DNA of 33,198 nt from Gallionella sp. (lineage in GTDB: Bacteria; Pseudomonadota; Gammaproteobacteria; Burkholderiales; Gallionellaceae): contig JABEVF010000017.1 in assembly GCA_013043965.1 (NCBI GenBank), positions 1 to 33,198 of the forward strand. Reading direction: 5' to 3'. The notes beneath the pieces are model-generated. The model worked only from the letters and a program-made list of their open reading frames with translations. It was not told where the DNA came from and ran no database searches. A program made the position numbers and the translations under genes. Shown one piece after another: positions 2,353-9,645 of the stretch (positions are counted from its first letter, which is position 1; each line of letters begins with the position of its first letter).

Positions 2353-3585
2353 TCACAAAGCCCGCGACAAATCTCCGCGCGCGAATCCGGTCAACGGGTT
2401 CGCTAATTTTTTACCCAGCGCGATGACTTTGAACAAATCGCCCATTTCTGCGGGACTGGTGAGTTTTTGCAATTGGCCGGACAGCGGCAGATAGTCACGC
2501 ACGTTCTCGGGCTGGTGTTGCGCCAGCAGATCGGTGATGCCGCCGTTGATCAGAAAGAACGCCTGGTTGGTATAGCCTGTCAGCTCCAGGCCGGCGTCGA
2601 TGCCGGTTTCCCCGATGTCGGTAAAATTCACATGCGCGGTGATGTCCTGCAAGCCGGGCAGATAAAAAGGATCGTCATGGGCGTGATGCCGGTAATGGCA
2701 CATCAGCGTGCCTTTGTCGCGTTGCGGATGATAGAACTCGCGCGCGCCGAAACCGTAGTCGATGAACAGCAGCGCGCCGATGTCCAAGCGACTCGCCAGA
2801 CTCTGTATCAAGCCGCGCGCCGCCAAACATATCTCGCTGAGGTAATCGTCCGGCATCGCTTCGACAAGCTCATAACCAGCGACTTGGCTATTGTTTTTTG
2901 ATAGCCTAGTCGAATGGCTAGTAGTTTCGTCAGGACGGATGGCCTGCGCCGCATCGCGCAGTGCCGCATCGCTGATGTCGCGCTCCTGCCATGTAAATCC
3001 TGCACCCTCGTTGACTACGCCGCGTTCGAATAAGCGGCTGTCGCGCCAGTGCACCAGATGCACCGGCAGCGCGTCCAGCACTTCGTTGGCGAAGACAGCC
3101 CCGGAAAAAGTTTCCGGCAACGCGTCCAGCCAATGCACGCGAGCCAGCAGATGCGGCAAGCGTTGTGCGACTTGCGCGCGCTGCCGTTCGCGCAGATCGG
3201 CACTCACTTCCAGTATCGAATAGCTGACAGGCAAGCGATCCAGCTGCTCCAACTCGGCCAGCATATCCACCGCCAGCTTGCCGCTGCCCGCGCCCAATTC
3301 CAGAATATGCGGCGCGCTCTGCGCCATGATCTGCCGCACTTGGCGCGCCAGCGTGCGCCCGAACAGAGCCGACAATTCGGGCGCGGTGATGAAGTCGCCC
3401 GCCTCGCCGAACTTGTGCGCCCCCGCCGTGTAATAGCCCAGTCCCGGCGCGTACAAGGCCAGTTCCATATAACGCGCAAACGGGATCCAGCCGCCGCTGG
3501 ACACGATCTCGTTTTGTATCAGCGTGGTCAAACGTGCGCTGTGTTCTAGTGCTGGCTGGCTGGGAGCGGGTAAGGAATTTGGCAT
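2353..3585 (-). CDS. Class I SAM-dependent methyltransferase, MidA/NDUFAF7 family
   Basis: Contains GYYTAGAHKFGEAGDFITAPELSALFGRTLARQ, ILELGAGSGKLA, FANEVLDALPVH, LFIDYGF, HPQRDKGTLMCHYRHHAHDDPF. Start MPNSLPAP at 3585 preferred over 3852. Confidence 0.9.
   Translation of the reverse strand: MPNSLPAPSQPALEHSARLTTLIQNEIVSSGGWIPFARYMELALYAPGLGYYTAGAHKFGEAGDFITAPELSALFGRTLARQVRQIMAQSAPHILELGAGSGKLAVDMLAELEQLDRLPVSYSILEVSADLRERQRAQVAQRLPHLLARVHWLDALPETFSGAVFANEVLDALPVHLVHWRDSRLFERGVVNEGAGFTWQERDISDAALRDAAQAIRPDETTSHSTRLSKNNSQVAGYELVEAMPDDYLSEICLAARGLIQSLASRLDIGALLFIDYGFGAREFYHPQRDKGTLMCHYRHHAHDDPFYLPGLQDITAHVNFTDIGETGIDAGLELTGYTNQAFFLINGGITDLLAQHQPENVRDYLPLSGQLQKLTSPAEMGDLFKVIALGKKLANPLTGFARGDLSRAL
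2872..2933 (-). repeat. 62-bp palindromic repeat, copy 1, in frame inside the MidA-family CDS
   Basis: Reverse complement CTGACGAAACTACTAGCCATTCGACTAGGCTATCAAAAAACAATAGCCAAGTCGCTGGTTAT matches 7373-7434 at 56/62 positions. + strand forms CGACT-T-GGCTAT-(TGTTTTTTG)-ATAGCC-T-AGTCG. Confidence 0.93.
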
Positions 3586-6832: not shown

Positions 6833-7288
6833 TTAAGGCGGATTCGCTGCGACCTTGAAAATCAGTTTGCGTATCGCGCCGCTACCCACCAGCGGCGCAT
6901 GCGCATCTTCGGGAAAGAAGATGCAGAACGCACCCGCAGGTGTGGCGATCCAACTATCCGGCACATCGCCGAAAAATCGGATGTCGCGCTCGGCATTGTG
7001 CTCATCTAGAGGTCGATGGCAATCGGACAAAGGTTTCCAGCCCATCTCGTCCACGCCTTCCAGCACCAGCTGAATGTCGATGTATTTGCGGTGAGCCTCC
7101 AGCTTCGCCTCCGCCCGCGTGCGCCCATCAGCCACTTCGACAATGGCTAATAATTGCCTGTCGATGATTTGATGCACACCGGGTGCGAGGGTGTTGAGAT
7201 CGGTGTCGCGCATGAACTCGAACGCGCGCGGGAACAGCGTATGCAGCGCGGCGTAGCGTGGAGCTTGAGAAAGGGTGGAAAAAATCAT
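6833..7288 (-). CDS. YhcH/YjgK/YiaL (DUF386) family protein
   Basis: HRKYIDIQLVLEGVDEMGW, FFPEDAHAPLV, cupin-like pattern of the family. Confidence 0.88.
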   Translation of the reverse strand: MIFSTLSQAPRYAALHTLFPRAFEFMRDTDLNTLAPGVHQIIDRQLLAIVEVADGRTRAEAKLEAHRKYIDIQLVLEGVDEMGWKPLSDCHRPLDEHNAERDIRFFGDVPDSWIATPAGAFCIFFPEDAHAPLVGSGAIRKLIFKVAANPP

Positions 7289-7372
7289 TTTTATTTACTC
7301 GATTCATCAACGCAGAACGTGAACCCAGCAGCTCATGGTGTTGCGCTCCGCTGTTACTCATCCCGCGACAGG

Positions 7373-7434
7373 CTGATGAAACTACTAGCCATTCGACTAA
7401 GCTGTCAAAAAACAACAACCAAGTCGCTGGCTAT
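7373..7434 (+). repeat. 62-bp palindromic repeat, copy 2, intergenic (yhcH-like / trhP)
   Basis: CTGATGAAACTACTAGCCATTCGACTAAGCTGTCAAAAAACAACAACCAAGTCGCTGGCTAT; inverted relative to copy 1 at 2872-2933. Confidence 0.93.
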
Positions 7435-7465
7435 CAGGACGCACAGATTATTGAAACCATTGACG

Positions 7466-8812
7466 TTACAGAAACCGCGCCACCATACCCTTGGACATGT
7501 CGCCTTGCAACGGTATCTGCACCTTATGGCCGCTGCCGGGTGCGACGGTCAACACTTCGCCCTTGACGCTGCGCATCGCCGCCAAATCAATAATACTGTT
7601 TCCGTCGGGGTGGATGATCTCCAGCTTGTCGCCGACGGAGAATCTGTTCTTCACATTGATCAGGGCCATGCCATCCGCGCAACTGACGATATCGCCGACG
7701 TATTGCTGACGGAAACTTTCTGAGTGGCCGCGCAGGTAGTTCTGCTGCTCGTGGGTGTGGTGGCGTTCGTAGAAACCGTCGGTGTAACCGCGATTCGCCA
7801 GCGCGTCCAGCGCGCCCAGCAATTGCGTGTTGAAGGGCTTGCCTGCCACCGCATCGTCCACCGCCTGACGGTAGACTTGCGCGGTGCGCGCGACGTAGTA
7901 AATAGACTTGGTGCGGCCTTCCACCTTGAGCGAATCGATGCCTATCTTCACCAGCCGCTCGACGTGTTCCACCGCGCGCAGATCCTTGGAATTCATGATA
8001 TAGGTGCCGTGCTCGTCTTCCAGCACCGGCATCAATTCATCCGGATGATCGGGGCGCGAGATCAGATACACCTTGTCGGCGGCGGGGTGGCGTTGTTGCG
8101 AGCCGCAGGCGGAGAGATTGGATGCGCCCAACGCTTCATCGAAATTGAAATCGATTTTCTGCGGGTCGCCGGTCGCGTCTTCTTCCGCGTCTTTGACCTT
8201 GTAATCCCAGCGGCAGGAATTGGTGCAGGTACCTTGATTGGGATCGCGGTGATTGAAGTAACCGGACAGCAGGCAGCGACCCGAATAGGCGATACACAAC
8301 GCGCCGTGCACAAACACTTCCAGCTCCATGTCCGGGCATTGCTGGCGTATCTCTGCTATCTCGTCCAGCGACAATTCGCGAGAAAGAATGACGCGCGTCA
8401 GCCCCAGCGACTTCCAGAATTTCACCGCCGCATAGTTCACCGTGTTGGCTTGCACCGACAGATGGATAGCCACTTCAGGCCAGCGTTCGCGCACCATCGC
8501 GATCAGGCCTGGGTCGGCCATGATCAGCGCATCCGGTTGCATCGCGATCACGGGTTCCATGTCCGCCATGTAGGTCTTCACCTTGGCGTTGTGAGGCATC
8601 AGGTTGCTGGCGACGAACAGTTTCTTGCCCAGCGCATGCGCTTCCCCAATGCCGACCTGCAACTCCTCCAGCTGAAACTCGTTGTTGCGCGCACGCAAGG
8701 AATAGCGCGGCTGCCCGGCATATACCGCGTCCGCGCCGAAGGCGTAAGCGGTGCGCATCTTGTCCAAAGTGCCAGCGGGTAGCAGGAGTTCGGGCGCGCG
8801 CAAAGTACTCAT
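7466..8812 (-). CDS. trhP: tRNA 5-hydroxyuridine synthesis protein TrhP (YegQ), peptidase U32 family
   Basis: MSTLRAPELLLPAGTLDKMRTAYAFGADAVYAGQPRYSLRARNNEF, ELEVFVHGALCIAYSGRCLLSGYFNHRDPNQGTCTNSCRW; start at 8812. Confidence 0.92.
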   Translation of the reverse strand: MSTLRAPELLLPAGTLDKMRTAYAFGADAVYAGQPRYSLRARNNEFQLEELQVGIGEAHALGKKLFVASNLMPHNAKVKTYMADMEPVIAMQPDALIMADPGLIAMVRERWPEVAIHLSVQANTVNYAAVKFWKSLGLTRVILSRELSLDEIAEIRQQCPDMELEVFVHGALCIAYSGRCLLSGYFNHRDPNQGTCTNSCRWDYKVKDAEEDATGDPQKIDFNFDEALGASNLSACGSQQRHPAADKVYLISRPDHPDELMPVLEDEHGTYIMNSKDLRAVEHVERLVKIGIDSLKVEGRTKSIYYVARTAQVYRQAVDDAVAGKPFNTQLLGALDALANRGYTDGFYERHHTHEQQNYLRGHSESFRQQYVGDIVSCADGMALINVKNRFSVGDKLEIIHPDGNSIIDLAAMRSVKGEVLTVAPGSGHKVQIPLQGDMSKGMVARFL

Positions 8813-9645
8813 TTCGACAATCCCAGGCGTTGCCAGATCGCCAGGCTGGGTGCGGCCTGATTCAAGGTATAGAAGTGCAGTCCGGGTGCGCCGCCTGCCA
8901 GCAATTTTTCGCACAGTGCGGTCACCGCATCCAGCCCGAAGGCTTGCACCGCCTCGTTATCGTCGCCATAACCTTCCAGCGTTTTGCGCATCCAGCGCGG
9001 GATCTCCGCCCCGCATGCATCGGAGAAGCGCGCCAGCTGCGAGAATTTCACGACGGGCATGATGCCCGGCACGATGGGCGCTGTGACGCCTAGTTTTCTA
9101 CATTCATCGACGAAATAGAAATAGCTGTCGGCGTTATAGAAATATTGCGTGATGGCCGAATTCGCGCCCGCGCCCATCTTGCGCTTGAAGTTGAGCAGAT
9201 CATCGCGCGCCGACTTGGCTTGCGGATGCACTTCGGGGTAGGCGGCCACCTCGATGTGAAAATGATCGCCCGTCTCGGCGCGTATGAACTCCACCAACTC
9301 GTTCGCGTATTGAAACTCGCCTACGCTGCCCATGCCGGATGGCAGATCGCCGCGCAACGCGACAATGCGCCGTACACCCTGTGCCTGATAGGTTTGCAGC
9401 AAGCGACGGATACTCTCGCGCGTCGAACCCACGCACGACAGATGCGGGGCAACGTCCGATCCTTGCGCTTTGATATGTGCGACGGATTGCAGGGTGCGCT
9501 CTTGTGTCGAGCCGCCCGCGCCAAACGTCACCGAAAAAAATTCGGGCCCCAACGCGGCCAATTGCTGGTGCGTATTCACCAGTTTTTCCATGCCCTCCGG
9601 CGTTTGCGGCGGGAAGAACTCAAAACTAATATGTGATTTACTCAT
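8809..9645 (-). CDS. metF: 5,10-methylenetetrahydrofolate reductase
   Basis: ISFEFFPPQTPEGMEKL, FSVTFGAGGSTQERT, ALRGDLPSG, PEVHPQAKS, LHFYTLNQAAPS; stop overlaps the trhP start (ATGA). Confidence 0.95.
   Translation of the reverse strand: MSKSHISFEFFPPQTPEGMEKLVNTHQQLAALGPEFFSVTFGAGGSTQERTLQSVAHIKAQGSDVAPHLSCVGSTRESIRRLLQTYQAQGVRRIVALRGDLPSGMGSVGEFQYANELVEFIRAETGDHFHIEVAAYPEVHPQAKSARDDLLNFKRKMGAGANSAITQYFYNADSYFYFVDECRKLGVTAPIVPGIMPVVKFSQLARFSDACGAEIPRWMRKTLEGYGDDNEAVQAFGLDAVTALCEKLLAGGAPGLHFYTLNQAAPSLAIWQRLGLSK

Follow-up and report, generated by a model that had tools for sequence, protein, structure and literature searches.

An in-frame palindromic insert in a MidA-family gene

The window analysed here, i.e. 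the whole 33,198-nucleotide stretch of Gallionella sp. DNA, encodes a MidA/NDUFAF7-family methyltransferase from an intact CDS (Methyltransf_28 domain, E=4.1e-62) that carries, in frame, one of two copies of a palindromic element, designated here as R1 (Table 1). The original prediction, made from the sequence alone, had described a 62-bp repeat at 2872-2933 within this gene and an inverted copy at 7373-7434. The repeat was shown to be real, as positions 2869-2933 match the inverted copy at 7373-7437 with 89% identity and constitute, by a wide margin, the window's longest inverted-repeat pair. Its borders were refined, based on the flanks of many copies, to 2872-2931 and 7375-7434, each representing 60 nt; the proposed in-frame reading within the MidA CDS was borne out, with 60 nt corresponding to 20 aa.

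Table 1. Positions of the MidA-family CDS, the two R1 copies and the remnants of the repeats that surround them
Feature	Position	Strand	Description
MidA/NDUFAF7-family methyltransferase CDS with insert	2353..3585	minus	410 aa; Pfam PF02636
R1 copy 1	2872..2931	minus	60-nt hairpin, in frame in MidA, encodes 20 aa DETTSHSTRLSKNNSQVAGY; E=5e-24
Left remnant CGTCCT of host repeat CGTCCT/GAGCTTGTCGAAG, split by R1 copy 1	2932..2937	minus	Reading of the flank
Right remnant GAGCTTGTCGAAG of the same host repeat	2859..2871	minus	Encodes ELVE 3' of R1 copy 1
R1 copy 2	7375..7434	plus	60-nt hairpin, intergenic between ORF 6833-7288 (minus) and ORF 7466-8914 (minus); E=3.9e-22
Left remnant GCGACAGGCT of a degenerate host repeat, type (C)GACAGGCT/CAGGAC	7365..7374	plus	Flank of R1 copy 2
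Right remnant CAGGACGCAC of the same degenerate host repeat	7435-7444	plus	Flank of R1 copy 2

In a tblastn search of 61 genomes (the source genome, 36 of the same genus and 24 belonging to other families of the order), MidA orthologs were identified in 60. For nearly all of the congeneric genomes, the alignment is interrupted at query residues 216|243-244, the two halves being contiguous in the DNA. Consistent with this, multiple alignment showed that orthologs read ...AAQQI-NVPDDYVSEI..., compared with ...AAQAIRP[DETTSHSTRLSKNNSQVAGY]ELVEAMPDDYLSEI... in the present protein, and the closest homolog with a solved structure (4f3n) exhibits the same gap at the insert. The peptide is thus missing from nearly all congeneric orthologs at this site. 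Of the approximately 26 extra residues, 20 are specified by R1 and the remainder by an older repeat remnant (RPELVE) inside which R1 is nested, indicating that the extra segment derives from two nested repeats. The CGTCCT/GAGCTTGTCGAAG host repeat also surrounds R1 at two further loci (L131 and L068). An AlphaFold model of MidA predicted from the single sequence was uninformative (pLDDT 35).

The same MidA loop (window positions 2850-3020) carries different in-frame inserts in other Gallionellaceae (L228, L230, L231, L257 and L258), examples being ARPEPFDFATSTGSGQAQDRPVEAA, FPLPNPPPEGEGA, SPSRPPLIRGG and LSPTLSLPEGEGA, while similar 'RPE' peptides were observed in this loop in L228 and L257. 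To judge from these sequences, the loop is a hotspot for multiple repeat families besides R1.

Sequence, borders and predicted hairpin of R1

Alignment of many copies revealed that R1 begins with GATGRAAC after (C/T)T and finishes with GGTTAT, with GATGRAACWAC[TAGCCA..TGGTTA]T as its consensus. The element is an imperfect palindrome of 60 nt (or 54 nt), and the hairpin that had been predicted for it was correct: 18 pairs are formed, with covariation among 15 copies from the source genome above that of 500/500 shuffles. Among these 15 copies, 90.6% of cells were paired and compensatory change was observed at nine pairs, while 119 distinct ungapped copies displayed 94.4% pairing and 173 compensatory (i.e. 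doubly changed) cells, compared with 7-41% pairing and at most 26 compensatory cells in a control in which the arms were slid by 1-3 columns. The inner stem was the most variable part of R1, its changes being largely matched. Comparison of the copies thus shows that R1 is maintained as a hairpin by compensatory change. None of 17 loci gave an Rfam match reaching the gathering threshold.

Three R1 subfamilies were distinguished, one of 60 nt, one of 60 nt that retains this length through two compensating one-base changes, and one of 54 nt. Of the 201 measured copies, 190 had an insert length divisible by three, including all 34 in-gene copies whose borders were measured; the inserts of these 34 were 54, 60 or 144 nt long. 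Given so few subfamilies, a multiple-of-three length in all three would be expected by chance in about one in nine cases and is suggestive only.

Deletion variants were also present among the collected copies, as was an enlarged R1 (L208:4090-4239), located in frame in murE, with a 144-nt insert that includes an additional 84 nt internally. Members of a 50-nt-core class (L142, L143, L168, L141 and others) have lost one stem base and gained one at the left border; they mostly reside inside the CCCTCTCCCCAACCCTCT host repeat, with which they form a composite that may spread as a single unit.

R1 is a multi-copy family among Gallionellaceae

A DNA search of the source genome returned approximately 17 related places, and a covariance model built from the 15 copies gave 35 matches at E<=1 and 18 at E<1e-11 (i.e. 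about 18 clear copies), a number well above what chance would give. Of the 37 genomes examined from the genus, 36 contained R1; the 24 genomes representing the order's other families contained none. Across the Gallionellaceae it was present in 119 of 134 genomes and in 13 of 14 genera, with often at least 38 or at least 85 candidates scored per genome; most of the genomes surveyed are MAGs. When about 85,000 species genomes were scanned for an exact 19-mer, at least 116 stretches were identified; among the matches listed, almost all were labelled as Gallionella, Gallionellaceae, Gallionellales, Nitrosomonadales, Sideroxydans or Ferrigenium, and a few were assigned to broader or unexpected groups (Gammaproteobacteria or Sulfuricaulis, for example). 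Among the genomes tested, R1 is confined to the Gallionellaceae. These searches, together with the in-gene copies and ortholog comparisons described below, agree with the original prediction of a peptide-inserting repeat family resembling the Rickettsia palindromic elements (RPEs), as R1 is represented by many copies beyond the two in the window, is lineage-specific, occurs in frame in many conserved genes and is missing from orthologs.

Members of one genus (g34, G110-G126) mostly lack R1, with no match in 11 of 17 genomes, while neighbouring genera are rich in the element. R1 was not matched in the plasmid and phage databases searched; two viral contigs carry copies. On a phage-like contig from IMG/VR (L226:5595-5660), the R1 frame MKQLAIRLGHQTTLAKSLVI leads into the signal-peptide-like ISLLLVPSLAHA, as if a protein had obtained its start codon and N-terminus from R1.

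R1 insertion sites are enriched in dispersed repeats

The left flank of R1 is represented by YT (C in 84% or T in 13% of cases, followed by T in 90%) and the right flank is mostly G or C, defining a YT|S target with no clear target-site duplication and at most a single shared T. IS200/IS605-type ssDNA elements insert 3' of a fixed short target that is not duplicated; with its YT|S target and at most one shared T, R1 may or may not be of this type. When the two flanks were joined, an intact repeat recurring at at least three other loci was obtained for 110 of 186 copies, compared with 33 of 558 matched control sites; the enrichment at R1 insertion sites is thus for dispersed repeats. These host repeats include CCGTTCG(C/T)CCT/GAGCTTGTCGAAGG and its complement, CCCTCTCCCCAACCCTCT/CCCGCAAGCGGGAGAGGG, GTCATT/CCCGCGAAGGCGGGAATCC and GGTGGGCAAG...GCCCACGC, and both R1 copies in the window sit in remnants of the CCGTTCG(C/T)CCT/GAGCTTGTCGAAGG type. 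R1 was also found inserted into GTAG-like and CGTC-like repeats.

Targeting of hairpin-forming DNA was considered and rejected, as the foldability of joined flanks exceeded that of matched sites only slightly (p=0.002), with no extra pairs spanning the junction. In the mutS genes of two genomes (L131:461-526 and L071:1501-1566), R1 occupies different points of what is apparently the same host-repeat insert (RP|..|ELVEG versus RPEL|..|VEG), suggesting that R1 entered a single older insert on two independent occasions.

R1 copies inside protein-coding genes

Based on a codon-usage model, in which the sequences flanking the element had to show a coding signal in one and the same frame, 35 of 212 distinct copies were classed as internal to genes, in frame. 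The matched families encompass MutS (three), MutL, PolA, MetG, GuaA, PrmC, MurE (three), MurF, Mpl, GlnE, TilS, an RlmN-like enzyme, Mfd, IspE, AddA, ApbE, a CzcA-type pump, a CobD-like protein and an MFS transporter, and the source genome contains an in-gene copy in the gene for 5-formyltetrahydrofolate cyclo-ligase. Gene-by-gene ortholog checks covered MidA, MetG and GuaA only, and a few in-gene calls (e.g. L200, L156, L029 and L033) are uncertain. Similar to MidA, congeneric orthologs of MetG and GuaA mostly break at the insert (318-319|353 and 452|478, respectively), and PDB homologs exhibit the same gaps.

Three R1 frames are frequently stop-free (+0 in 77%, +1 in 80% and -0 in 69% of copies) and are the sole frames used in CDSs (19, 10 and 5 cases, respectively). 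That three of the six frames are open is unremarkable, since a shuffled consensus has at least three in approximately one third of cases, and frame openness alone is therefore no sign of adaptation. R1 was depleted in CDSs, with 32 of 187 copies in genes, compared with 61% of random windows passing the same test. Being 3.6-fold rarer in genes than under random placement, most copies look like tolerated selfish DNA, and such depletion is expected for selfish DNA filtered by purifying selection.

Several of the in-gene copies reside in repair or replication genes (mutS, mutL, polA, addA and mfd; L131, L071, L177, L222, L142, L157 and L209). Intragenic repetitive extragenic palindromes (REPs) of other taxa were likewise reported in DNA repair genes (PMC3733652).

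Proposed mechanism and alternative explanations

We consider it probable (roughly 85%) that R1 is a small non-autonomous mobile hairpin, confined to the Gallionellaceae among the genomes tested, whose in-gene copies are mostly tolerated. In this scheme the hairpin element inserts after YT, mostly in pre-existing repeats, as the flanks show, and the insert length keeps the reading frame, as seen in the measured copies. Since this length is almost always 3n and three frames are usually stop-free, a fraction of CDS insertions would preserve the gene and add 18-20 aa. Gene-breaking insertions would then be purged and those in permissive loops would survive, in line with the depletion in CDSs, and we infer that the peptides in MidA, MetG, MutS, GuaA and other proteins are mostly tolerated rather than useful.

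More tentatively, at somewhat less than even odds, an HUH (Y1/TnpA_REP-like) enzyme may mobilise R1 in trans by way of single-stranded DNA. This suggestion draws on insertion after CT or TT without clear target duplication and on hairpins being what HUH enzymes recognise; TnpA_REP was shown to cleave at CT located 5' or 3' of REPs (PMC8266576). The odds are put no higher because no R1-linked enzyme was found: the flanks of about 70 Y1/RAYT/IS200 loci displayed approximately background R1 density, some R1-rich drafts (e.g. G021) show no Y1 gene, and no recurrent neighbouring gene was detected at R1 copies. The 3' border TTAT, which is not a CT site, also counts against this step, as does the lack in R1 of the GTAG guide tag typical of REPs.

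R1 could alternatively be a MITE, derived by internal deletion from a lost or rare autonomous IS (with a DDE or other transposase) with CTGA..TCAG-like ends. Precise and constant borders, high copy number, the failure to find a transposase linked to R1, deletion variants and the single enlarged 144-nt version would all fit such an origin, and MITEs with reading frames (ERIC/RU-1, Correia/NEMIS and YPAL; PMC2229807) are, like R1, non-autonomous, form a stable stem-loop and give rise to in-frame fusions. However, R1 shows no clear target-site duplication and no terminal inverted repeat independent of its single hairpin, and the collected copies include no longer, gene-bearing relative. The named MITEs are about 100-200 bp in size, several with target-site duplications, whereas R1 has at most a single shared T. 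We regard a MITE origin as somewhat unlikely.

It is also unlikely that R1 is an ordinary GTAG-/CGTC-tagged REP/BIME family, mobilised by RAYTs and with a few accidental intragenic copies. R1 has hairpin DNA, CT-adjacent insertion and high copy number in common with REP/TnpA_REP (RAYT) systems, RAYT genes are common in the genus, and copies are paired or clustered in alternating orientation at some loci (L171 and L113). Yet in the R1 consensus the foot of the hairpin carries neither a GTAG nor a CGTC tag, no R1-linked RAYT or enrichment in RAYT flanks was observed among the approximately 70 Y1 loci, and GTAG-like and CGTC-like repeats instead serve as insertion hosts for R1.

That R1 is adapted to coding DNA, spreading through proteins by means of its 3n length, three stop-free frames and preference for earlier in-frame repeats, appears decidedly unlikely; if true, it would represent a steady supply of new 20-aa segments and, sometimes, start codons. 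Highly improbable is a function of the R1 peptides themselves, by which they would be kept in repair and cell-wall genes through altered protein activity. Their recurrence in mutS (three), murE (three), mutL, polA and addA, and intragenic REPs reported in the same gene class (PMC3733652), would be consistent with such a function, but sister genomes carry uninserted orthologs of the same genes, three different frames and peptides are in use, and copies are depleted in CDSs. That the extra MidA peptide is ancestral and the DNA similarity elsewhere secondary, for which nothing was found in favour, is refuted by the lack of the peptide in nearly all congeneric and more distant orthologs and by its presence in unrelated proteins.

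Relationship to known protein-coding palindromes

The best-known protein-coding palindromes are those of Rickettsia and Wolbachia, for which genome decay could be the explanation, and the RPE families of Rickettsia were reportedly described by Ogata et al. in 2000. Like R1, RPEs and their Wolbachia counterparts are lineage-restricted palindromes located between and inside genes, in frame in housekeeping genes, with a recurrent peptide. R1, being a multi-copy intergenic and intragenic palindrome whose insert is missing from MidA, MetG and GuaA orthologs, falls into this RPE-like functional class. In contrast to RPEs, which are about 100-150 bp long and occur in obligate intracellular Alphaproteobacteria, R1 inserts are 54-60 nt, reside in free-living iron-oxidising Betaproteobacteria, use three frames and are nested inside other repeats. 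By length and host R1 lies outside the true Rickettsia RPEs, a distinction that is based on these two features.

Rickettsia RPEs (reviewed in PMC2229807 and PMC10969869), the precedent originally proposed, hold as an analogy but are not the only one. Several bacteria, among them Thauera, Thioalkalivibrio and Opitutus, have documented intragenic REPs (PMC3733652); REPs of the GTAG/CGTC type, to which RPE-4 and RPE-6 belong, are small hairpins, often in ORFs, that encode 20-30 aa (PMC3733652), and other MITE fusions have been reviewed (PMC2229807). R1 differs from the GTAG/CGTC type in being untagged, longer than 20-40 bp and inserted into REP-like sequences. As precedents are wider than Rickettsia, the kind of element is not new; no description of R1 itself was found in the open-access literature on repeats of Gallionella or Gallionellaceae. 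R1 appears to work like RPEs and intragenic REPs, yet its lineage, its apparently different sequence and the lack of a GTAG/CGTC tag mark it as a probable separate family.

R1 represents a family-wide case in free-living hosts with ordinary-sized genomes, with hundreds of copies and presence or absence at orthologous sites, and permits tests of how short selfish DNA enters proteins, which protein loops admit it and whether it is ever put to use. For annotation, the Gallionellaceae peptides DETTSHSTRLS.., LAIRLS.. and ITSDLA.. derive from repeats and would lead homology searches and domain assignments astray. Finally, a RAYT-like gene at one locus (L267:1510-2094) contains doubled repeat-like peptides (GAIRELSLP.. 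and GAIHESPLPS..), apparently reflecting another palindromic repeat inserted in frame.
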